A stretch of 21,840 nt of DNA from Deltaproteobacteria bacterium RIFCSPHIGHO2_02_FULL_40_28. GTDB lineage: Bacteria > UBA10199 > 2-12-FULL-40-28. The stretch spans positions 1 to 21,840 of the forward strand of contig MGRJ01000021.1 of the NCBI GenBank assembly GCA_001798135.1. Reading direction: 5' to 3'. The position numbers were made by a program, and so were the translations under genes. The notes beneath the pieces are model-generated. The model was not told the origin of the DNA. It did not search any database and was given only the letters and a program-made list of their open reading frames with translations. Positions 9,629 to 21,661 of the stretch are shown here, one piece after another. Position 1 is the first letter of the stretch. Every line of letters begins with the position of its first letter.

Positions 9629-11560
9629 CTAGCGATGTACAAGGTAAGTATAACTTTTTAAAATTTGCTCGTAAAAATCGGTAAGGGTAACCCCTTCCTT
9701 GGGTTTGATGGCGCCTGTTTTAATTTTTTCATCAATGGCTCGTTTGACTGATTTAGCTAATTCACTCGGGAAGTATTGAAGTCTCACCAAAACATCCGAT
9801 ATGCTATCGCCAGGAATCACTTCTTCTAAGTAAAAATCTTCTGGATCTTCATCATCACAAAAAACATGAACCTCATTCACCCTTCCAAATAAATTATGCA
9901 TGTCCCCCATAATATCTTGATAAGCTCCCAACATAAAAAGCCCAATATAGTAAGGCTCCCCTGGTTTTAAATCATGAAGCCAAAGGGTATTTTTAGGAGC
10001 AACCGCATCAATAAATTTGGCGATTTTTCCATCACTATCACAAGTAATATCCACCAAGGTGCCACGACGTGAAGGATTTTCATTTAAACGATGAAGAGGA
10101 ACAAGTGGAAACAGTTGGCCAAAAGCCCAATGGTCAGGTGCCGATTGAAAAACAGAAAAATTAGCTAGGTATTGATCAGCTAAAAGTTCTTTTAAATGTG
10201 AAGTTTCCTTGGCTGCTTTTTTCTTTCTAGAACCCCTCAATTCCAAAATTTTGCGACAAATTTGCCAATAAAGAGCTTCAACCTTTGCTCGCTCTTCTAA
10301 ATCTAAAATACCTAAACGAAAAGCAGCAAGAGCATCTTCTTTTTTAGCATTGGCATCGTGATAACTTTCTTGAATATTGGCATCAGAAAGATTCTGAAAA
10401 ATTTTTCGCATCTCAGTTACAATTTGTGAGTGGTCTGATTTTCCTAAAATATCGGCATAGTCATGCCCCAATTGGATACTTCCAAAAACAGGAATAATAA
10501 TACAAGAATGATGCGCTGTAACAGCACGGCCAGATTCTGAAACAATATGAGGCTCTGGAACCTCTTCATCCTTACAAATTTGCTGAAGATTGTAGATTAA
10601 ATCAGCAATATATTCATCCATGGTATAGTTCATGGAAGATTGAGAGGTTGAATTAGCTCCTTCATAATCAACCCCTAGCCCACCACCTACATCAAAATAT
10701 TCCACAGGAAATCCCATCTTACAAAGCTTGGCATACATTCTAGCGCCTTCATTCATGGCTTCTTTGATCACACGCATATCTGTTAATTGGCTACCAGCAT
10801 GGAAGTGAAAAAGTTTTAAACATTCCATTTTACCTAAAGATTTTAAAAGATCGGTAGCCTGGATAATTTCTGGAACAGTTAATCCAAACTTAGCTGAATC
10901 TCCACTGGAGGATGTCCACTTTCCTGCTCCCTTCGTTGATAAACGGGCACGTAATCCAATATGAGGTTCTACTTTCATTTCTTCTGCAAGACGTAAAAGT
11001 TCAGGAAGCTCACTCAATTTTTCAATCACAACAATCACCTTACGATCTAGCTTTCGCCCTAAAAGAGCCAGACGCACATATTCTTCATCCTTAAAACCAT
11101 TACAAATGGTTAAAGCTTCTAAATCAGTATTGTAAGCTAAAACAGAAAGAAGCTCCCCTTTACTTCCTGCTTCTAAACCCAGATGTCCAAAGGCTCCCGC
11201 ATCCAAAATTTCTTCTACAACTTCGCGCATTTGGTTTACCTTGATGGGATAAACACCAAAGTAGGCTCCTCCATAATTCATTTCTTTAATATGTTTTTCA
11301 AAAGTACGAATGAGAAGCTCAACACGTGATCTCAAAATATCTTGAAAGCGAACCACACAGGGAAAACTTAATTTTTTATCCCGGATTTCATCCACCACAT
11401 CCATGATATCAATGCGGGGACCTGTCTCACCATAGGGCTGAACTGTCAGATTTCCTTTTTCATTCACGGTAAAATAACCCGAACCCCAATTGTGAATATT
11501 GTAATAATCAATAGCTGATAGGGTAGACCAATCTTTTTGCTTAGCAATCTCTTTGTCCAT
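9629..11560 (-). CDS. speA: Biosynthetic arginine decarboxylase
   Basis: A PLP-dependent, fold-III decarboxylase of 643 residues that converts arginine to agmatine for polyamine synthesis. FGVYPIKVNQ holds the Schiff-base lysine, Lys107. HFHAGS is at 252-257, the phosphate-binding VGGGLGVDY at 291-299, ESGRA at 342-346, and the active-site CDSDG, contributed across the dimer, at 507-511. Length and all motifs match the SpeA family rather than LysA or ornithine decarboxylase. ATG 11560 is preceded by AAGGAG at 4 nt. No agmatinase or agmatine deiminase gene is near. The gene is first in a minus-strand run that also contains argS, and it is divergent from the rimB-like gene. Confidence 0.97.
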   Translation of the reverse strand: MDKEIAKQKDWSTLSAIDYYNIHNWGSGYFTVNEKGNLTVQPYGETGPRIDIMDVVDEIRDKKLSFPCVVRFQDILRSRVELLIRTFEKHIKEMNYGGAYFGVYPIKVNQMREVVEEILDAGAFGHLGLEAGSKGELLSVLAYNTDLEALTICNGFKDEEYVRLALLGRKLDRKVIVVIEKLSELPELLRLAEEMKVEPHIGLRARLSTKGAGKWTSSSGDSAKFGLTVPEIIQATDLLKSLGKMECLKLFHFHAGSQLTDMRVIKEAMNEGARMYAKLCKMGFPVEYFDVGGGLGVDYEGANSTSQSSMNYTMDEYIADLIYNLQQICKDEEVPEPHIVSESGRAVTAHHSCIIIPVFGSIQLGHDYADILGKSDHSQIVTEMRKIFQNLSDANIQESYHDANAKKEDALAAFRLGILDLEERAKVEALYWQICRKILELRGSRKKKAAKETSHLKELLADQYLANFSVFQSAPDHWAFGQLFPLVPLHRLNENPSRRGTLVDITCDSDGKIAKFIDAVAPKNTLWLHDLKPGEPYYIGLFMLGAYQDIMGDMHNLFGRVNEVHVFCDDEDPEDFYLEEVIPGDSISDVLVRLQYFPSELAKSVKRAIDEKIKTGAIKPKEGVTLTDFYEQILKSYTYLVHR

Positions 11561-13137: not shown

Positions 13138-13653
13138 TTAAAACTTAACTAAACTCAAAATGTTGTGATGAACTAATTTTTCACGCCCTTTTAAAAATTC
13201 AAGCTCAACCACAAAAGCAAAACCAAAAACTTTGGCCTTTTGTTTTTTCAAAAGAAGATTCACAGCCTCTGCAGTACCCCCTGTGGCTAACAGATCATCA
13301 ACAACCAGTACACACTCTCCTGTCTCAACAGCGTCAGCATGCATTTCAACTGTATCAGTTCCATATTCTAAATCGTAAGATTGTGAAACAGTCTTCCAAG
13401 GAAGTTTTCCTTTTTTTCTTACAGGAATAAATCCAATCCCCAACTGATAAGCAAGAGCTGCGCCAAACATAAAACCCCGTGATTCAATTCCTACAATTTT
13501 TTGAATTCCCTTATTTTTAAATTGTTCTGCAAAAGCATCAATGATGTCACGAAAACTTTGAGGATCCTTTAAAAGAGGAGTAATATCTTTAAAAATAATC
13601 CCGGGTTTTGGAAAATCCGGAACATCACGTATAATTTTTTTAAGTTTTTCCAT
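13138..13653 (-). CDS. apt: Adenine phosphoribosyltransferase
   Basis: A 171-residue cytoplasmic enzyme of purine salvage that makes AMP from adenine and [19 protein letters not shown] (14-28) is the APT N-terminal signature, [10 protein letters not shown] (55-64) follows, and the PRPP-binding loop [13 protein letters not shown] lies at 115-127. The length is normal. ATG 13653 with AAGG 8 nt upstream was chosen; GTG 13662 would add three residues. The upstream LysM/M23 gene ends 10 nt before this ATG, and tRNA-Arg follows after 7 nt, so apt is the last protein gene of the long operon. Confidence 0.96.
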
Positions 13654-13663
13654 AGTTGTCACC

Positions 13664-14440
13664 TTAATTTTTAGGAGGTAAAAACTTGAGAGGATCTAAA
13701 GGCCCGGTTTTATGTCTCACCTCAAAATGCAGATGAGGGGCAGTTGCCCTCCCCGTTCTACCTACTGTCCCTAATAATTCACCACGAGTTAATTTTTTCC
13801 ATTTCTTAGTTTTAATTTCATTTAAATGCGCATAAGCCGTAAAATAATGAGAGCGATGTTTTAAAATAACCAAATTTCCATAAGCCCTAAGCTTTCCAGC
13901 AAAAATCACTTCACCATTCGCTGCGGCATATACTGGCACCCCTATCTTAGCGCCAATGTCAATGCCATCGTGTGCCCTATTTCGTCGTGGGCCAAAGGGA
14001 GAAATAATTTCTCCTCGAACGGGCCAATGAAATGTTATGTGGTTTTCGTCTTCTGTTTCTGTGGGAGCATTTTCTTCCACTTTCAAAGCATCTTCTTTTT
14101 TAGCTCTTAAATCCCGGCGATAATCAAGTGTTTCTTTTTTTTGAGGAATAATAATAACTTGCCCTTCTTCTAAATGATCGGCCTCAGTAATATTATTTCG
14201 ATCGGCTAATTGATTCACTTCAATATCAAATTGACTGGCAATCTCACTCAAGGTTTCATCTTGATGCACTATGTAATGACGTTCTTTTTTTATGTTAGAA
14301 TTGCTAGACTTAGCCTCCCCGCCTAAAACATCAGAAAACTCAGCACAAGAAGATATAAAAAAACAACACAAAGACATTAGAAACAAATTACTGAAGATGG
14401 ATCCCCGCCTTCGCGGGGATGACAAAGCTTGATTAATCAT
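13664..14440 (-). CDS. LysM + LytM/M23 peptidase-like lipoprotein (NlpD/murein hydrolase-like)
   Basis: A 258-residue envelope protein. The signal peptide ends in the lipobox ISSC (Cys32). A LysM glycan-binding domain lies at about 54-99, then a charged linker, then an M23 domain at about 138-258. The zinc ligands HDGID (His157, Asp161) and HLH (His236-His238), and the catalytic AH (His205), are all present, so it could be an active endopeptidase, unlike E. coli NlpD, which is degenerate. Its place behind surE and pcm matches the surE-pcm-nlpD order of Proteobacteria. ATG 14440 overlaps the pcm stop; the frame is open upstream to 14494, and ATG 14377 would leave a poor signal lacking basic residues. 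Residues 7-14 are encoded by a REP-like palindrome. Confidence 0.9.
14401..14420. repeat. REP-like palindrome inside the lipoprotein signal peptide
   Basis: ATCCCCGC-CTTC-GCGGGGAT is a perfect 8-bp stem with a 4-nt loop, and the flanks continue as GTCATCCCC...GGGGATCC, a dispersed repeat type common in proteobacterial genomes. It is far more G+C-rich than its surroundings. It lies 13 nt after the pcm stop codon and is translated as part of SSPRRRGS. No T-run follows on the minus strand, so it is not a standard terminator, although it could stabilise a 3' end. Only one copy is in the window. Confidence 0.65.
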
Positions 14441-15140
14441 CAATAACAGACCTCTTTGGAAATATTCTTGTTCTATCTCTTCGGTGCCAGCCATGAGTTC
14501 CTACTAATTTTACAAAACGACAATCACCTAAAGATTCTACTTTTACCTGATTATTTTTTTTTGAAATTCTTACTAAAGTTTGTACGTCTTCTGTTCCTAC
14601 TGGCATCACTAATCTGCCCCCATCAGCTAATTGATCAACCAAGGGTTTGGGCACTACAGGAGAAGCCGCTGCAACAAGAATGGCATCAAAAGGTCCCATA
14701 TCCTCCCAACCCATACTGCCATCACCAATACGAAGCACAATATTAGTAAGTCTCAAAACCTTTAAATGATGTCTCGCCTTAAAAGCCAAATTTTTTATCC
14801 GCTCAATGGTATAAACCTGTTTAGCTAAGAGAGAAAATACTGCGGTTTGATATCCACAACCAGTTCCTATTTCCAAAACTTTTTCACTCCCAGTTAAGTT
14901 TAGGCTCTGGGTCATTTTGGCAACAATATAAGGCTGAGAAATAGTTTGGCCCTCACCAATACCCAAGGGATAATCTCCATAGGCTTGGCTTTGCAGGGCT
15001 TCATCTACAAACAAATGACGAGGAATAGAAAAAAGAGCTTCAATCACACGTTTATCCACAATATCCCGTCCTAACAGATGCCTTTCTACCATACGTCTTC
15101 TAGCTACAGCATAATAATCAAGGGATTTTGCTTCACGCAT
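14433..15140 (-). CDS. pcm: Protein-L-isoaspartate O-methyltransferase
   Basis: A 235-residue SAM-dependent methyltransferase that starts the repair of isoaspartyl residues in damaged proteins. The N-terminal part has the PCMT features FVDEAL (44-49) and the substrate-side motif GQTISQPYIVA (64-74). SAM motif I is VLEIGTGCGY (88-97), followed by VYTIER and the motif GPFDAILVAAA. The length is slightly above the usual 210-220 because of a basic C-terminal tail, RRDRTRIFPKR. ATG 15140 overlaps the surE end by 8 nt, so translation is probably coupled. The surE-pcm-LytM order is conserved in Proteobacteria and is linked to stationary-phase survival. Confidence 0.96.
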   Translation of the reverse strand: MREAKSLDYYAVARRRMVERHLLGRDIVDKRVIEALFSIPRHLFVDEALQSQAYGDYPLGIGEGQTISQPYIVAKMTQSLNLTGSEKVLEIGTGCGYQTAVFSLLAKQVYTIERIKNLAFKARHHLKVLRLTNIVLRIGDGSMGWEDMGPFDAILVAAASPVVPKPLVDQLADGGRLVMPVGTEDVQTLVRISKKNNQVKVESLGDCRFVKLVGTHGWHRRDRTRIFPKRSVIDD

Positions 15141-15888
15141 GAGTGAGTTTCCACTTTCTAATTTCTCTTAAAAAATTAAAATCAGTCATATCAACTTTAA
15201 TGGGAGTAATAGAAATCATTTGATCCAAATAAGCCTGGCAATCTGTACCTTCCTTATTTTCAAAACGAAAGGGATCTCCACCAATCCAAAAATAAGGTTT
15301 GCCACGTGGATCTACATTTTCGATAATCACATCCCCATAAGTATGTTTACCCAATTGAGTAAACAAAACACCGCGAATTTTTTCTTTAGGAAGACTAGGA
15401 ACATTAACATTAAGCACAACTCCTTTTGGGAGTTTATGTTTTAAAACTTTTTTTACAAGCTTTGTTGTAAACGATGCAGCTACATCAAAACGAAAATCAC
15501 CCATACCTACCTCTGAAACAGCAATGGCAGGAATCCCCATGATAGCTCCTTCCATAGCAGCAGAAACGGTTCCTGAATAATGAACATCCTCACCCAAATT
15601 AGCTCCCCGATTAATACCTGAAACAATCATGGCAGGTCGTTCATCAAGGAGCTTGTACACTGCAAGCATAATGGCATCGGTGGGAGTGCCATTTATAGAA
15701 TAAACATCAGGAGATAATTTTTCGACACGAAGAGGGCGATGAAGTGTTAAGGCATGTGAGGCCGCTGATTTTTCGCTGTCAGGTGCTGCCACCACAATAC
15801 GTGCTGCAGGAATTTTTTTCAAGGCTTTGACTAATTTTTTAATGCCTTCCGAATGCACACCATCATCATTTGAAACTAGAATAATCAT
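15133..15888 (-). CDS. surE: 5'/3'-nucleotidase SurE
   Basis: A 251-residue, metal-dependent phosphatase of nucleoside monophosphates, cytoplasmic. NDDG (7-10) gives the two metal-binding aspartates Asp8 and Asp9, and the SAASHALTL region near 41-49 supplies the conserved Ser. MIVSGINRGANLGEDVHYSG holds the conserved Asn, and YSGTVSAAMEG closes the active site. Length and motifs are those of typical SurE. The start ATG lies 3 nt after the stop of the upstream EEP gene, and the end overlaps pcm. No independent promoter is visible, so expression appears tied to the upstream ceramide genes. Confidence 0.96.
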   Translation of the reverse strand: MIILVSNDDGVHSEGIKKLVKALKKIPAARIVVAAPDSEKSAASHALTLHRPLRVEKLSPDVYSINGTPTDAIMLAVYKLLDERPAMIVSGINRGANLGEDVHYSGTVSAAMEGAIMGIPAIAVSEVGMGDFRFDVAASFTTKLVKKVLKHKLPKGVVLNVNVPSLPKEKIRGVLFTQLGKHTYGDVIIENVDPRGKPYFWIGGDPFRFENKEGTDCQAYLDQMISITPIKVDMTDFNFLREIRKWKLTHA

Positions 15889-15891
15889 AGT

Positions 15892-17094
15892 TTAAGAATA
15901 AATATCAATATCAACTAAGATAGGATCATGATCCGAAATAGGAGTTCCATTTTTACAAACAAGATTATGATAAACTTTGGGCGAAAGCGCTCCCAAATCA
16001 GAATGCGCGGGTTTAACCCATTTTCCTGCAAACCAATCGAGCTTCAAAGAACATTTTCCACCATGTCGTTTTAAAGTTTCTTCCATCACACGCCGGCACC
16101 ACTCTGGAACCACTTCCCTTACTAAATGATTTTGTTTTATGTCTTCAATAGAATAATGAAGGGTACCCTGACCTATTTCATTAAAATGTTCATAGTCAAA
16201 ACCATAATCCTTAAATACTTTAAATAAAAAACGATCAAAATAACGATCGGGATAGGGATAATGGTTTGCTATCACATGATCTACACCTCGAAAAACTTTA
16301 TTCCAAAAACCAAAAAAAGCAAATAAGGCATGTCTTGCATTATAACTTGATGTGTTCAAATCCCCCCCCAGAACAAGAGGATGACGCCCTTCTGCAAGAA
16401 AAGAAAGAATACTTTTGAGTTGAGCTGCCCTTTGCCTTTGCGAAGAATGGGCATCTAAATGCGCAGCAACCCCGGTTACTTTTCTAAAAGGAAATTCAAT
16501 TTCACAAACCAGGGCTTTTTGACAGCCAAGCCTTTTTTCCTTCCCTCTCATTTTATCAATGGCATTTTTTAAGGGCTGGGTTCTTAAGTTATGAAGAGGA
16601 TATCGTGATAAAATAGCATTACCATGAAGACCCAGTTCATTTTCTCCTTCATAATGTCCCTCGGCTAGGTTGCCCTTACATAAATTAAGATAAGAAGTAG
16701 CAAAAAAATAATTCATTTTAAGTTCACGGGCCAACTCACGCGCAATATTTACATTACGTGTTCTCGCCATGCCAATATCAGTTTCAACCAGGTAAATAAC
16801 ATCAGCACGGGAGAGATCCGGGTGAGTTTTAAAAACATGGACCACATCGTTAAAATTAATTCCTCTTTCAATATTCCAAGTTACAAAACGATAAAATTTT
16901 TTTCTTTCATAAGGTACTCTCAGAGAAAATTGATCTGCCTCCATCCCATTAACAACCAACAAAATTTGATCCTTGAGACTTTTAAAAAGGGCAGATTTTA
17001 AAAGAGATTTTGTAGAGGTATATTTCTGAAGCTCATCTTTATAAGCATTAAGATGATGTTCGATTAAAGGATAAGTTTGGGGAATAGCAGTCAT
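15892..17094 (-). CDS. Endonuclease/exonuclease/phosphatase (EEP) superfamily phosphoesterase
   Basis: A 400-residue protein with the metal-dependent DNase I-like fold and all core residues: TWNIERG with Asn74 and Glu76, LVETD with Glu104, HLDAHSS (212-218), GGDLNT with Asp245 and Asn247 (243-248), and SDHDP with Asp388 and His389. An N-terminal extension of about 65 residues looks helical and is followed by a basic stretch, and an insertion of about 90 residues separates GGDLNT from the end. There is no signal peptide, so it is probably cytoplasmic or membrane-peripheral. The superfamily includes nucleases, inositol phosphatases and sphingomyelinases, and sequence alone does not choose among them. 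It sits 9 nt after the small secreted protein, three genes behind the ceramide genes, and touches surE. Confidence 0.85.
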   Translation of the reverse strand: MTAIPQTYPLIEHHLNAYKDELQKYTSTKSLLKSALFKSLKDQILLVVNGMEADQFSLRVPYERKKFYRFVTWNIERGINFNDVVHVFKTHPDLSRADVIYLVETDIGMARTRNVNIARELARELKMNYFFATSYLNLCKGNLAEGHYEGENELGLHGNAILSRYPLHNLRTQPLKNAIDKMRGKEKRLGCQKALVCEIEFPFRKVTGVAAHLDAHSSQRQRAAQLKSILSFLAEGRHPLVLGGDLNTSSYNARHALFAFFGFWNKVFRGVDHVIANHYPYPDRYFDRFLFKVFKDYGFDYEHFNEIGQGTLHYSIEDIKQNHLVREVVPEWCRRVMEETLKRHGGKCSLKLDWFAGKWVKPAHSDLGALSPKVYHNLVCKNGTPISDHDPILVDIDIYS

Positions 17095-17103
17095 GCAGAA
17101 GCA

Positions 17104-17556
17104 CTACTTAGCATCTCGCAAAGCTTCTTGGCGATAATTTTCGTATCGATTTTTATAGGTACTCTCTTCCTGGGTAGTTATTCCTCCCTTATGAGCATCT
17201 TGCACAACCAAATTAATATCACTGGCTAAACTCCCAGCACCATTATTAGCTACTTCGAAATAAGCATTTAAAGTAGAATCTGATTGATCAAACCAGTACA
17301 ACCAAATTCCCTTAGTTCCTACTTCAGACCCTCTTAAACTTTTAAAAGGGAGGGTCCAAGTTTGACCCGTACGAATTGAAGTAAAATTATAGGAATCGGT
17401 AGATTTATAAATTCTAACTTTGGTCTTAGCTTCGAGAGGAGCATTTCCCTGTTTGTAGATAGCCTGATACTCCCCAGGCGCTACTACCTCCTCGGCCAAA
17501 GCAGGCAAAGTAAAAATTAAAATAAAGAAAACAAACGGTGTGATTTGTTTTTTCAT
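17104..17556 (-). CDS. Small exported protein of unknown function
   Basis: A 150-residue protein that I do not recognise. It begins with a clear Sec signal peptide (basic MKKQ, hydrophobic core, ALA cleavage after residue 21). The mature 129 residues are predicted mostly beta, with aromatic and Gly/Ser-rich stretches such as LYWFDQSDSTLNAYFEV, and end in a charged Tyr/Arg-rich helix, KNRYENYRQEALRDAK. There is no lipobox or Cys, and it is probably periplasmic. It starts 20 nt after cerR and ends 9 nt before the EEP gene, so it is embedded in the ceramide operon. It may be an envelope accessory to sphingolipid handling, but this rests only on position. Confidence 0.75.
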   Translation of the reverse strand: MKKQITPFVFFILIFTLPALAEEVVAPGEYQAIYKQGNAPLEAKTKVRIYKSTDSYNFTSIRTGQTWTLPFKSLRGSEVGTKGIWLYWFDQSDSTLNAYFEVANNGAGSLASDINLVVQDAHKGGITTQEESTYKNRYENYRQEALRDAK

Positions 17557-17576: not shown

Positions 17577-18548
17577 CTAAGACTTAAGCCAACCCTTATT
17601 TTCATACCAAGCTTTAGTTTGAGTTAAGCCAAAATCAAGCCCTATGGGGTTTTTATTAAAAAACTTCTGACTCCCCTCTTCCGCAATACAAAACCAATAG
17701 TTTTGTTTCATTTCAGCAAATTTATCTCTCGTAAACAAAGAGGGTCTCCGTGCTAGCTTTCCAAAAAATTCTACAATCCTGCAAAGAGCACTTATAAACC
17801 AAAGTGGAAAAAAAATAGGTTTAATTTTTCTTCCATAAAGCTTGCTTCCCAAATTTAAAAATTCATCTAAGGTATAACCCCCATGACCATCCTCTGGATG
17901 AAAAATTTGCCCATGATGTGGGGGCTCAAGACATAAACGAGAAAGAAACCAGGCTAAATCTTCCACATGAATAAAACTCAACTTAAGAGAACGAGAAAAA
18001 ACGGGAAAAAAACCACTTTTAAAAAGTTGAAAAAATCTTAAAGTTTCACGATCAGAAGGACCATACACGATAGGAGGTCTAACAATCACAATAGGAAACG
18101 CTCTCTCCTTACTTAAAAGCATCTCCTCTGCTTCTTTTTTACTTTTGCCATAGTGACTTACCGGACCTATGCCAGAAAAATGATAAGAGTCCGGGTTTGG
18201 ACCTCGAGCAGAAATTGAGGAAACAAAAATAAAAATCTTGGGCTTTAATTTTTCTTCAACGAAGTGGATTAATTGTTCTGTTCCTTGTGAATTAACCAGG
18301 TAAAAATCCTCTGGATGCAGGGCTTTAATTAACCCGCCAATATGAATAACAGCATCTATAGGACAATCAAGACTCACAGAATCAAGTGATTCCAAAGATC
18401 CAGAAACAAGATGAACTCCCTGTGATTTTAGAAAATAAGCTTGGGATAAATTTCGTACTAAAGCATAAACCGTATGGCCTTCAGAAATAAGAAGGGCAGT
18501 GGTATGCCGCCCTACAAAACCAGTAGCACCTGTTAAAAATATATTCAT
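17577..18548 (-). CDS. cerR: Extended SDR oxidoreductase, probable ceramide reductase CerR
   Basis: A 323-residue NAD(P)-dependent epimerase/dehydratase-type protein. The Rossmann motif is TGATGFVG (6-13), and the catalytic set is Ser111/Ser113 in VSSIS with Tyr133 and Lys137 in YGKSK. In Caulobacter the SDR CerR reduces 3-oxo-ceramide, the product of ceramide synthase. Here the gene overlaps the bCerS-like gene by 4 nt (ATGA) and follows an SPT-like gene, so the same step is inferred. SDR sequences alone do not show the substrate, and a sugar-epimerase or steroid-dehydrogenase-like role remains possible if considered in isolation. The C-terminal region is hydrophobic near residues 220-245 and may touch the membrane. 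Confidence 0.78.
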   Translation of the reverse strand: MNIFLTGATGFVGRHTTALLISEGHTVYALVRNLSQAYFLKSQGVHLVSGSLESLDSVSLDCPIDAVIHIGGLIKALHPEDFYLVNSQGTEQLIHFVEEKLKPKIFIFVSSISARGPNPDSYHFSGIGPVSHYGKSKKEAEEMLLSKERAFPIVIVRPPIVYGPSDRETLRFFQLFKSGFFPVFSRSLKLSFIHVEDLAWFLSRLCLEPPHHGQIFHPEDGHGGYTLDEFLNLGSKLYGRKIKPIFFPLWFISALCRIVEFFGKLARRPSLFTRDKFAEMKQNYWFCIAEEGSQKFFNKNPIGLDFGLTQTKAWYENKGWLKS

Positions 18549-19672
18549 GCTATATGCTTTTCAAAAACACGGTATTTTTTATAAGGCACCCCGCCCATTA
18601 AAGAAATACCATGATTAATCTTTTCGTTATCTTCCAAAGTCCAAGAAAGTTCTCCTCCATGATAAGCTAACTTCACACCTCTTTGATGCATTTCGGTATA
18701 GAGAAGAACACTTAAACCATTTAAAACATCGTGGCGAAATTCTTTTTTAATTCCTAGAAGACACAGTCTGGCGCTTTTTATCTTTTTGGTTTTAAGACGA
18801 TACAGAAGTTTAAACAATCCAAAGGGAAATAAGTGCCCATTTAAATCTCTAATCACTTCGTGATAATTAGGAATAGAAATCGCAATAGCAGCAGGTACAC
18901 CATTAACTTCAGCAATCAAAGCGATCTCGGGATCTAAAATCATTTTCATATCACGAGCTGCTTTTTTAAGTTCTTCGGAAGTCCAAGGAATAAAACCCCA
19001 ATTGTTTGACCAAGCTGAGTTAAAAACTTCACTAATAATTTTAATTTCTTCTTCCATTTTATTCAAATTTACTTCCCTTATTTTTAAACCTGGATGAACT
19101 TTAACAGCTTCTGCAATTTGCATAGCAACAATGGGCACAGGTTTGTGTGCATCATATTTCCAAGCAATCAGATCTTTAATTTGAGTAAAACCACTCTGCA
19201 CTAAAAGTGATTCATAATAAGGCCAATTATGAGGCATGTAAGGGTATGGAGGGCTATCATAACCCTCAACTAAAAGCCCCACTTCATCATTAATCGATAA
19301 GGTCATAGGCCCCACCATGCGTGTCATTCCTTTTGAAATGAGCCAAGAAGAAGCTGCATCAAAAAGTTCTGAGGCTACTTGGGTACTCTGGATACAATCA
19401 AAAAAACCAAAATGACCTGTTTTTTCTTGATAACGCTGGTTATGCAAAAAATTGATTTGGGCTGATATTCTACCCACCACCCTTCCCTCATTTTTAGCAA
19501 CAAAAAATACAGCCTCACCATGATGAAAAAAAGGATTCTTTTTTACATCCATCATTTCAGAACGTTCTAATCTTAAAGGAGGAACCCAATGGGGATCGTC
19601 TTTATAAAGTGTATAAGGAAAATTAAGAAAGTCTTTTTTGAGTGATTTTGAATTAACAAAAAAAACAGGCAT
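18545..19672 (-). CDS. bcerS: YghO/BcerS-type acyltransferase, probable bacterial ceramide synthase
   Basis: A 375-residue cytoplasmic protein resembling the YghO/BcerS group, which has a GNAT-like fold. Features I recognise are the N-terminal YTLYKDDPHWVPPL, then FFHHGEAVFFVA and GRVVGRISAQIN, typical of this group, MVGPMTLSINDEVGLLVEG, and YMPHNWPYYESLL in the middle. A second GNAT-like half follows (about 200-375). In Caulobacter the family member bCerS acylates 3-ketosphinganine from acyl-CoA to give 3-oxo-ceramide. Here it lies 1 nt after an SPT-like gene and overlaps the SDR gene, which strongly supports the same role. There is no homology to eukaryotic TLC-type ceramide synthases. The assignment rests on family resemblance plus context. 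Confidence 0.8.
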   Translation of the reverse strand: MPVFFVNSKSLKKDFLNFPYTLYKDDPHWVPPLRLERSEMMDVKKNPFFHHGEAVFFVAKNEGRVVGRISAQINFLHNQRYQEKTGHFGFFDCIQSTQVASELFDAASSWLISKGMTRMVGPMTLSINDEVGLLVEGYDSPPYPYMPHNWPYYESLLVQSGFTQIKDLIAWKYDAHKPVPIVAMQIAEAVKVHPGLKIREVNLNKMEEEIKIISEVFNSAWSNNWGFIPWTSEELKKAARDMKMILDPEIALIAEVNGVPAAIAISIPNYHEVIRDLNGHLFPFGLFKLLYRLKTKKIKSARLCLLGIKKEFRHDVLNGLSVLLYTEMHQRGVKLAYHGGELSWTLEDNEKINHGISLMGGVPYKKYRVFEKHIA

Positions 19673-19673
19673 A

Positions 19674-20927
19674 CTACCAATTATGTTTTTTCTTGAGTTC
19701 TGAAAATAATTCTAAAACTTTATCTAAATGGGCTTTGGTGTGCTCGGAAGTAACACTGGTTCTCAGAAGAGATTTGTTTTTAGGCACTCCCGGATAAAGA
19801 ACAGCATTCACATAAACCCCCAAATTTAATAACTCACGCCACAGGTTTAAGGTTAAGAGTTCATCACCCACAAAAACAGGAATAATAGGAGTTTCGGTTA
19901 CTCCTGTATTAAAGCCTAAACGACTGAGATGATCTTTTAAATAGAGTGCATTCGCCCGAACCCGATCAACACGTTCTGGTTCTGCTTGCAAAATTTCAAG
20001 CGCTGCCATTGCTGCTGCTGCAGAAGGTGGAGGCAAGCTAGCTGAAAAAAGAACAGAACGCCCAAAATGTTTGATAAAATCCACCACCTTCGCACTGCCC
20101 ACCACAAAACCACCAACAGAAGCTAATGTTTTACTAAAGGTTCCTGTGATTAAATCTACCTCATTATTTAAACCAAAATAATGGGTGACTCCACGTCCGC
20201 AAGGGCCAATAACTCCTACTCCATGAGCATCATCTACGGTAATACGTGCCCCATATTTTTTACTGATAGAAACAATCTCTGGAAGTTTTGTGAGATCCCC
20301 TTCCATGCTAAAAACACCATCCACCATCACCATCTTTCCACATTCTGGAGGAAGAGAAGCAAGCACACGTTCTAAATCATCAAGGTCGTTATGTTTAAAA
20401 CTTTTAAGTTCACCCTTCCCTAGTCTGGCCGCATCATAAATGCTGGCATGATCTGCTTTATCAATAACAAGATATTCATCCTGATTAATCAGGGCTGAAA
20501 TAACACCTAAGTTGGCTTGATACCCTGTAGAAAAAACCAAACAAGCCTCACGTCCAAAAAAACTGGCTATACCTTCCTCTAGGGTTTCATGTAATTTGTG
20601 AGTGCCGTTTAAGAGACGTGAACCAGTCAAACTAGTGCCAAACTCTTCAATAGCATTCTGGGCAGCCTTACGAACTTGAGGGTGAATCGTTAAACCCAAG
20701 TAGTTATTAGATCCCAGCATAATGACTTCTTTGCCATCCATAATGGCAATGGGGCCTTCGTTTCGATCAATGGTTTGGTAATAGGGATAAAGTCCTAACT
20801 TGCGAAGCATGTCGGCTTCGATAAATCTTTCACATTTAGAAAAAACATCCACATCCCCCTTTGAAAAAAGATCCATGCGACCGTCTAAGCTTACCTGTTC
20901 TTTGATTTTAGCTGATGTTTGTGGCAT
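19674..20927 (-). CDS. spt: Alpha-oxoamine synthase, probable serine palmitoyltransferase
   Basis: A PLP-dependent fold-I enzyme of 417 residues from ATG 20927. Motifs (this numbering) are MLGSNNYLGL (70-79), DKADHASIYDA with the ring-stacking His160, TVDDAHGVG with Asp232 and His235, and GTFSKTLASVGG with the Schiff-base Lys266. KBL, BioF, HemA and SPT share these motifs. The context of bCerS- and CerR-like genes selects SPT, which condenses serine with palmitoyl-CoA to 3-ketosphinganine. The N-terminal DLFSKCxxF-like region before LGLYPYY is also seen in bacterial SPT-like enzymes. The start is uncertain. GTG 20981 has GAGG 8 nt upstream but puts a terminator hairpin inside the gene; ATG 20927 follows the hairpin without a clear ribosome site; ATG 20876 is also possible. 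Confidence 0.85.
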   Translation of the reverse strand: MPQTSAKIKEQVSLDGRMDLFSKGDVDVFSKCERFIEADMLRKLGLYPYYQTIDRNEGPIAIMDGKEVIMLGSNNYLGLTIHPQVRKAAQNAIEEFGTSLTGSRLLNGTHKLHETLEEGIASFFGREACLVFSTGYQANLGVISALINQDEYLVIDKADHASIYDAARLGKGELKSFKHNDLDDLERVLASLPPECGKMVMVDGVFSMEGDLTKLPEIVSISKKYGARITVDDAHGVGVIGPCGRGVTHYFGLNNEVDLITGTFSKTLASVGGFVVGSAKVVDFIKHFGRSVLFSASLPPPSAAAAMAALEILQAEPERVDRVRANALYLKDHLSRLGFNTGVTETPIIPVFVGDELLTLNLWRELLNLGVYVNAVLYPGVPKNKSLLRTSVTSEHTKAHLDKVLELFSELKKKHNW

Positions 20928-20928
20928 A

Positions 20929-20969
20929 ATAAAAAGGGCGTAAGGTGGTTTTTTATCCACTTTACGCCC
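20929..20969 (-). terminator. Intrinsic terminator after the beta-barrel gene
   Basis: The arms are GGGCGTAAGGTGG (20936-20948) and CCACTTTACGCCC (20957-20969), 13 pairs with one G-T wobble, closing an 8-nt loop. On the minus strand the stem is followed by TTTTTAT, so it is a strong Rho-independent terminator for the upstream beta-barrel gene, 33 nt after its stop. The T-run ends 2-3 nt before ATG 20927 of spt, so the hairpin could also act as an attenuator or block spt translation. Confidence 0.85.
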
Positions 20970-21001
20970 GAAGTCAAACACTAAAAAAGCCTCAATTTTA
21001 T

Positions 21002-21661
21002 CTAGAAATGTACTCCAACAGCAGCCATAACTGAAATTTGATAATCAAAACCACCACTCAGGATGGTGGTATCAACTCCTGCAATCACTTTTTTGTACTC
21101 TTGGAGAAAAACCAAATCATTTGAAAGATCCAAACCTAAGTAAAGTGCCTTGTAATCAACTTCTAAACCACCACCTAAGCCAAAACCATAACCCCAAGCC
21201 CCTACCTTATCATCATCATTAGGAGCATTCACAAAAAGAGCATGAGCTAACCCACCTGCTTTGGCATAGGGATAAATCTTCCAACTGCGATCCTTATTAA
21301 AATCCGAGTACTGAGTAGTCAAAAAGCTATACTTACCGTTTAACCTTACCGTTAAGGCATGCTCTCTACCAGTACCACTGGGTGTATTTCCTGTTTTAGT
21401 GGAATAAGAAAACTGGAGTTCTGGCGCAATCCAGTCAGTGATATTATGCCCATAAGTAAAACCATAACCCAACTCGATATCATTACCAAACTCGGTCCCT
21501 GTTCTGTCATTGGTATCATGGGATAAATCCATAAAACCAACCATTGAGTAAATATAAGACCCTTTATGATTTTCTAGATCTGTGGCTAAAAGTTTTCCTG
21601 AAAAGCCAAACACGATCAGAAACATCACAAAAGTTTTAAAAAAATAACATCTTTTTTCCAT
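21002..21661 (-). CDS. Outer-membrane beta-barrel protein
   Basis: A 219-residue exported protein. The signal peptide covers about 1-26 (cleavage after LLA), and the mature chain of about 193 residues has alternating polar/hydrophobic beta strands rich in Tyr, Gly and aromatic residues, such as YSMVGFMDLS and WGYGFGLGGGLEVDY. It ends in Phe, the usual C-terminal signal for outer-membrane insertion by the BAM complex. The size fits an eight-stranded OmpA/OmpX-like or lipid-modifying barrel; no enzymatic motif is evident, so a porin-like, adhesin or structural role is open. ATG 21661 has AGGGGG about 5 nt upstream. It has its own promoter and terminator, so it is a single-gene unit. Confidence 0.85.
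   Translation of the reverse strand: MEKRCYFFKTFVMFLIVFGFSGKLLATDLENHKGSYIYSMVGFMDLSHDTNDRTGTEFGNDIELGYGFTYGHNITDWIAPELQFSYSTKTGNTPSGTGREHALTVRLNGKYSFLTTQYSDFNKDRSWKIYPYAKAGGLAHALFVNAPNDDDKVGAWGYGFGLGGGLEVDYKALYLGLDLSNDLVFLQEYKKVIAGVDTTILSGGFDYQISVMAAVGVHF

Follow-up and report, generated by a model that had tools for sequence, protein, structure and literature searches.

The spt-bcerS-cerR run and its neighbours

The window (the whole stretch of DNA analysed, 21,840 nucleotides) contained a run of three genes on the minus strand, together with the neighbouring features listed below.

19674..20927, minus strand: spt, serine palmitoyltransferase (SPT)-type alpha-oxoamine synthase, ATG start (profiles, PDB matches, tree, AU test, and motifs)
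18545..19672, minus strand: bcerS, predicted YghO/bCerS-type tandem-GNAT N-acyltransferase, 375 aa (YghO identity and fold)
17577..18548, minus strand: cerR, extended SDR, putative reductase of the ketosphinganine/ketoceramide type, 323 aa (motifs and tree)
20928..20975, minus strand: intrinsic-terminator-like hairpin in the interval between the OMP gene and spt, with arms GGGCGTAA..GTGG and CCAC..TTACGCCC, then TTTTTATT
13138..17556, minus strand: genes after cerR, for a secreted 150-aa protein, an EEP-family protein, surE, pcm, a LysM-M23 peptidase, and apt
21002-21661: outer-membrane beta-barrel (OMP) gene upstream of spt

The ORF check revealed a 1-nt gap between spt and bcerS and a 4-nt overlap between bcerS and cerR, and all three frames were intact and carried conserved motifs. 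The spt frame is open to a GTG at 20981 (19674-20981) and contains another in-frame ATG at 20876. The hairpin before the ATG at 20927 had an MFE of -23.1 kcal/mol, compared with a mean of -14.2 for shuffled sequences (z -2.9), and is followed by a U tract, UUUUUAUU. As the start of spt, we favour the ATG rather than the GTG because this strong terminator-like hairpin stands between the OMP stop and the ATG. Since the hairpin and its U tract separate the OMP gene from the spt ATG, the transcript of spt probably begins at the hairpin or beyond it.

The successive gaps or overlaps after cerR were 20, 9, 3, -8, -62, and 1 nt, and the six genes found there are probably co-transcribed with the cassette. 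Two genomes from the same taxonomic order (L035 and L037) share the arrangement EEP-surE-pcm after the cassette, and their copies are 59-66% identical. The product of the EEP-superfamily (PF03372) gene at 15892-17094 may have a lipid role, given that sphingomyelinases belong to this superfamily. A second EEP-family gene was found near the spt side in both relatives (L035:10698-11843 and L037:9386-10393). Additionally, cerR and the gene for the secreted 150-aa protein are separated in these genomes by a gene that weakly matches Type I phosphodiesterase (PF01663; L035:5200-6549 and L037:4464-5906), where the window has only 20 nt.

Family assignments of the three proteins

Spt scored highest against the NCBIfam SPT models (475 and 413 bits), followed by BioF (379), KBL (368 and 306), and HemA (266), and its family-profile E-value was 1e-142. 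The top score is the best of all models yet lies below the SPT equivalog cut-off (475 vs 640 bits), as does that of the Rubrobacter relative; the NCBIfam SPT models were built on Bacteroidota and proteobacterial members. The best PDB match was the SPT of Sphingobacterium multivorum (E 3e-112); structures of KBL, BioF, HemA, and cysteate acyltransferase ranked below it. A tree of 49 oxoamine synthases placed Spt between the SPT of S. multivorum and those of the Sphingomonas type, and the branch splitting the SPT clade from KBL/BioF/HemA had an SH-aLRT of 99. The PLP-lysine and active-site motifs GTFSK (residues 280-284), DHASIYD (177-183), VDDAHG (249-254), and LLR (405-407) were identified, and further motif columns hold NGT and a motif other than SMDG. 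At the position two residues ahead of the conserved Arg (LLR in Spt), every complete row of the SPT clade had a hydrophobic residue and every KBL, BioF, HemA, and outlying row had Arg (RLR). Taken together, these sequence comparisons support placing Spt among the SPTs within the alpha-oxoamine synthases.

Sphingomonas and E. coli homologues served as comparators in place of the Caulobacter proteins. By tblastn, bCerS was 40% identical to E. coli YghO over residues 6-374 (98% of its length) and 36% identical to the Sphingomonas homologue, with no match to Pfam or NCBIfam models or to PDB sequences. Fourteen columns were invariant among 28 sequences. An AlphaFold model of bCerS, whose confidence is modest (pLDDT 62) because its alignment held three sequences, resembled tandem-GNAT enzymes along the whole length, the best fold match being the tandem GNAT 7q3a (Z 17.5, 282 residues, rmsd 6.6). 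Homology and the modelled fold support a YghO/bCerS-type tandem-GNAT protein, for which N-acylation of a long-chain base is predicted.

CerR carries GATGFVG at residues 7-13 (GxxGxxG) and Y133-GKS-K137 (YxxxK). It grouped with CerRs from the spt loci of E. coli, Klebsiella, Rahnella, and Sphingomonas with a support of 90, below the starred level; the E. coli sugar enzymes GalE, RfbB, Fcl, Gmd, and HldD were on the opposite side of the tree (95), and RfbD, on a very long branch, strayed. Because of this weaker tree resolution, the assignment of the putative CerR is less secure than the other two. No N-terminal signal was found ahead of the glycine motif of the Rossmann fold (residue 7), and the sequence does not decide the location of the protein; Caulobacter CerR has been reported as periplasmic from fusions (PMC11087976).

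The earlier note had described three genes, the first two 1 nt apart and the last two overlapping by 4 nt, for an oxoamine synthase with a PLP lysine motif, a YghO/BcerS-type GNAT-like protein, and an extended SDR with YxxxK. This description agrees with the ORF coordinates, with GTFSKTLASVGG at residues 280-291 of the GTG frame, with the YghO identity and tandem-GNAT fold of the middle protein, and with the position of the SDR outside the sugar epimerases. In the phylogeny that it had proposed against KBL, BioF, HemA, and SPT, the window protein fell inside the SPT clade, with two characterised SPTs spanning it.

Recurrence within the class and envelope context

Genes for bCerS were found in 22 of the 46 genomes of the class. 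Among the 45 genomes besides that of the window, 21 had bCerS with an SPT-like match (at least 315 bits, or a partial copy beside bCerS), one had SPT without bCerS, and 23 had neither; every bCerS genome had Spt (21/21; Fisher p 6e-12, indicative because the genomes are related). A 64% identical Spt was observed at G001:C342:23212-24429, in a 97% complete genome of 440 contigs in which no bCerS was detected. The distances of Spt and bCerS were correlated (rho 0.55, reached in 0 of 1000 shuffles), and the correlation for CerR was lower (rho 0.34-0.35).

The full same-strand order spt-bcerS-cerR was identified in 11 other genomes of the class and also on plasmids of Streptomyces sp. NBC_01001 and Rubrobacter radiotolerans. 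The cassette is therefore an old, recurring unit that is not particular to the window's genome, since it is found within the class and in Streptomyces and Rubrobacter, and it is not a chance association, given the E-values of 1e-142 and 3e-112 and the recurrence of the tandem in relatives. Frequent clustering of the three ceramide genes and Spt-like proteins in 38 Black Sea phyla have been reported (PMC11334938). Eight class members had an spt-bcerS pair without a recognisable adjoining cerR, and their reductase may be located elsewhere, different, or missing; pairs with no recognisable cerR nearby were seen at L040, L041, L043, L052, L057, L058, and L060. At L039, in a genome of the same order with no CerR beside bcerS, a classical SDR (FabG-like, 10592-11359) adjoins spt and may replace CerR in the manner of a eukaryotic-type reductase. 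In addition, a plasmid of Priestia megaterium (L074) encodes a 49% identical Spt-clade synthase beside an acyltransferase and a methyltransferase, with no adjoining bCerS or CerR.

Lipid A is the anchor of the usual outer-membrane lipid. LpxC, the product of a key lipid A gene, was detected in none of the 46 class genomes, 29 of which are more than 90% complete with at most 5% contamination, and the same search detected it in four control genomes. LpxB had no match in the window's genome, and its three matches in the class were fragments scoring close to the cut-off; nothing over the cut-off was found for LptF/LptG in the class, the window's genome included, and the LpxA C-terminal domain was absent from the window's genome. 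That genome encodes two Omp85 proteins, M23 peptidases, and outer-membrane barrels. Since LpxC is absent and LpxB and LptF/LptG are essentially absent from the 46 assemblies while the window's genome keeps Omp85, the simplest reading is that the class is apparently an LPS-free diderm lineage.

A simple replacement of LPS by sphingolipids found no support as a rule, because class members without the operon also lack LpxC. About half of the class has no sphingolipid genes, and sphingolipids are therefore not the sole LPS substitute. The lipid made by the window's operon would probably be destined for the outer membrane. Export of the Lpt type has been suggested for Caulobacter via LptF2/G2 (PMC11324152), and lptF/lptG adjoin the Sphingomonas and E. 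coli ceramide loci; this route was rejected here, with no LptF/LptG match in the window's genome. The envelope context is the most useful aspect of the locus, in that a class without LpxC, with and without the operon, allows the sphingolipid-for-LPS idea to be examined within one lineage. The class-wide absence of lipid A genes and that of AcpR and AasR are additions beyond the earlier note.

Predicted pathway and comparison with known ceramide systems

We consider it highly probable that the locus is an operon for a sphingolipid backbone, ending in dihydroceramide, by which an uncultured lineage joins the predicted sphingolipid producers. We infer as follows which amino acid and acyl donor are used, in what order acylation and reduction occur, and which lipid results. 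Spt, as a PLP enzyme, would form 3-ketosphinganine by condensing L-serine and a long-chain acyl thioester, for which acyl-CoA is the most likely candidate. The tandem-GNAT bCerS would N-acylate this 3-ketosphinganine; the SDR CerR would then reduce the ketone to give dihydroceramide, and translational coupling through the 1-nt gap and the 4-nt overlap would hold the three enzymes in step. The enzyme identities and the ceramide pathway as such, already put forward in the earlier note, are supported by phylogeny, family profiles, fold, and co-occurrence, the synthase falling outside the KBL and BioF clades. Two of its further claims stand in part. The genes do occur in the order spt, bcerS, cerR, but condensation, acylation, and reduction is only one of two competing models (PMC11087976), and the gene order therefore cannot be read as the reaction order. 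Similarly, the cassette is complete as a three-enzyme core only, since Caulobacter requires five genes (PMC11324152).

The product could instead be a related N-acyl oxoamine-derived lipid, either 1-deoxyceramides, if alanine or glycine is used, or a sulfonolipid, if cysteate is. The PLP enzyme would differ solely in the amino acid it takes, the Black Sea is rich in 1-deoxysphingolipids that have been linked to bacteria encoding Spt-like proteins (PMC11334938), and cysteate acyltransferase (28eh) is also homologous to Spt. We nevertheless regard this product as unlikely, as Spt matched cysteate acyltransferase at 256 bits and SPT at 379 bits and grouped with SPTs, apart from the Persicobacter, Phocaeicola, and Photobacterium outliers.

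A KBL- or BioF-type synthase beside an unrelated acetyltransferase and sugar epimerase is very improbable, even though all three proteins come from broad superfamilies and the best NCBIfam model for the SDR was HpnA, a hopanoid-associated epimerase (76 bits vs a cut-off of 368). Forcing the window clade with KBL/BioF/HemA cost 69 log units (AU p=0.001), and tree and AU test rule out such an identity for the first enzyme unless the model misleads. Apart from spt, the genome has a single oxoamine synthase gene, on contig C4, and its product matches BioF above its cut-off. HpnA or sugar-epimerase identity was rejected for the SDR from the profile score and the CerR tree, and the cassette recurs with a YghO-type bCerS in distant bacteria. 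There is next to no reason to regard the genes as non-functional, or the contig as a binning error (the window being an entire 21.8 kb contig of a 31-contig assembly), given three intact frames with conserved motifs and the downstream EEP, surE, and pcm genes, whose arrangement is shared by two genomes from the same taxonomic order.

The predicted sphingolipid operon has the same Spt, YghO/bCerS-type N-acyltransferase, and extended-SDR CerR as the systems of Caulobacter crescentus, E. coli, and Sphingomonas (aasR, cerR, acpR, spt, and cerS). In those bacteria, spt stands with acpR, cerS forms a separate unit, and aasR lies nearby or elsewhere (PMC9386255, PMC11324152), whereas bcerS sits between spt and cerR in one run in the window. 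The yghO gene of E. coli adjoins spt and genes for an ACP, a fatty acyl-AMP ligase, and an SDR resembling CerR; in one E. coli sequence listed as a plasmid (NZ_MG591698.1, L065), these genes and yghO lie beside lptF/lptG and glc genes.

Unlike the Caulobacter and E. coli loci, the window contained no gene for ACP/AcpR or an acyl-AMP ligase (AasR). Proteobacterial Spts take acyl-AcpR produced by AasR (PMC9386255). Five AMP-binding genes were found in the genome, and all four complete ones tested matched acyl-/acetyl-CoA ligases rather than FAAL models in NCBIfam; E. coli AasR matches the fatty acyl-AMP ligase model at 871 bits. Because AcpR and AasR genes are not in the window and the four AMP-binding proteins are not of the FAAL type, acyl-CoA is the likely donor for Spt, as in Bacteroidetes. 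A three-gene unit without AcpR and AasR is suited to reconstituting ceramide synthesis and to settling the order of acylation and reduction.

It has been stated that bacterial cerS is always in another operon than the remaining genes, and this was used to argue for a salvage role (PMC11324152). The window locus and its relatives are counter-examples to that statement, from outside the proteobacteria underlying it. The earlier note called the compact form notable, and this holds only in part: the form contradicts that generalisation, yet it is no rarity, since 11 other class genomes, Streptomyces, and Rubrobacter share the order and clustering has been published (PMC11334938).

Among the closest known arrangements are those of the Streptomyces sp. 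NBC_01001 plasmid, with the same order and strand and 4-nt overlaps, and the Rubrobacter radiotolerans plasmid, with the same order and strand, an 8-nt overlap, and a 13-nt gap; their proteins are each 34-44% identical to those of the window, and their neighbours are different. In Bacteroidota, unlike in the window, the three genes are not near one another (PMC11334938). The Bacteroidetes-type SPT (S. multivorum, 3A2B/8GUH), which uses acyl-CoA without AcpR, gave both the best PDB match and the best NCBIfam model for Spt and has the SMEGD motif in common with it.
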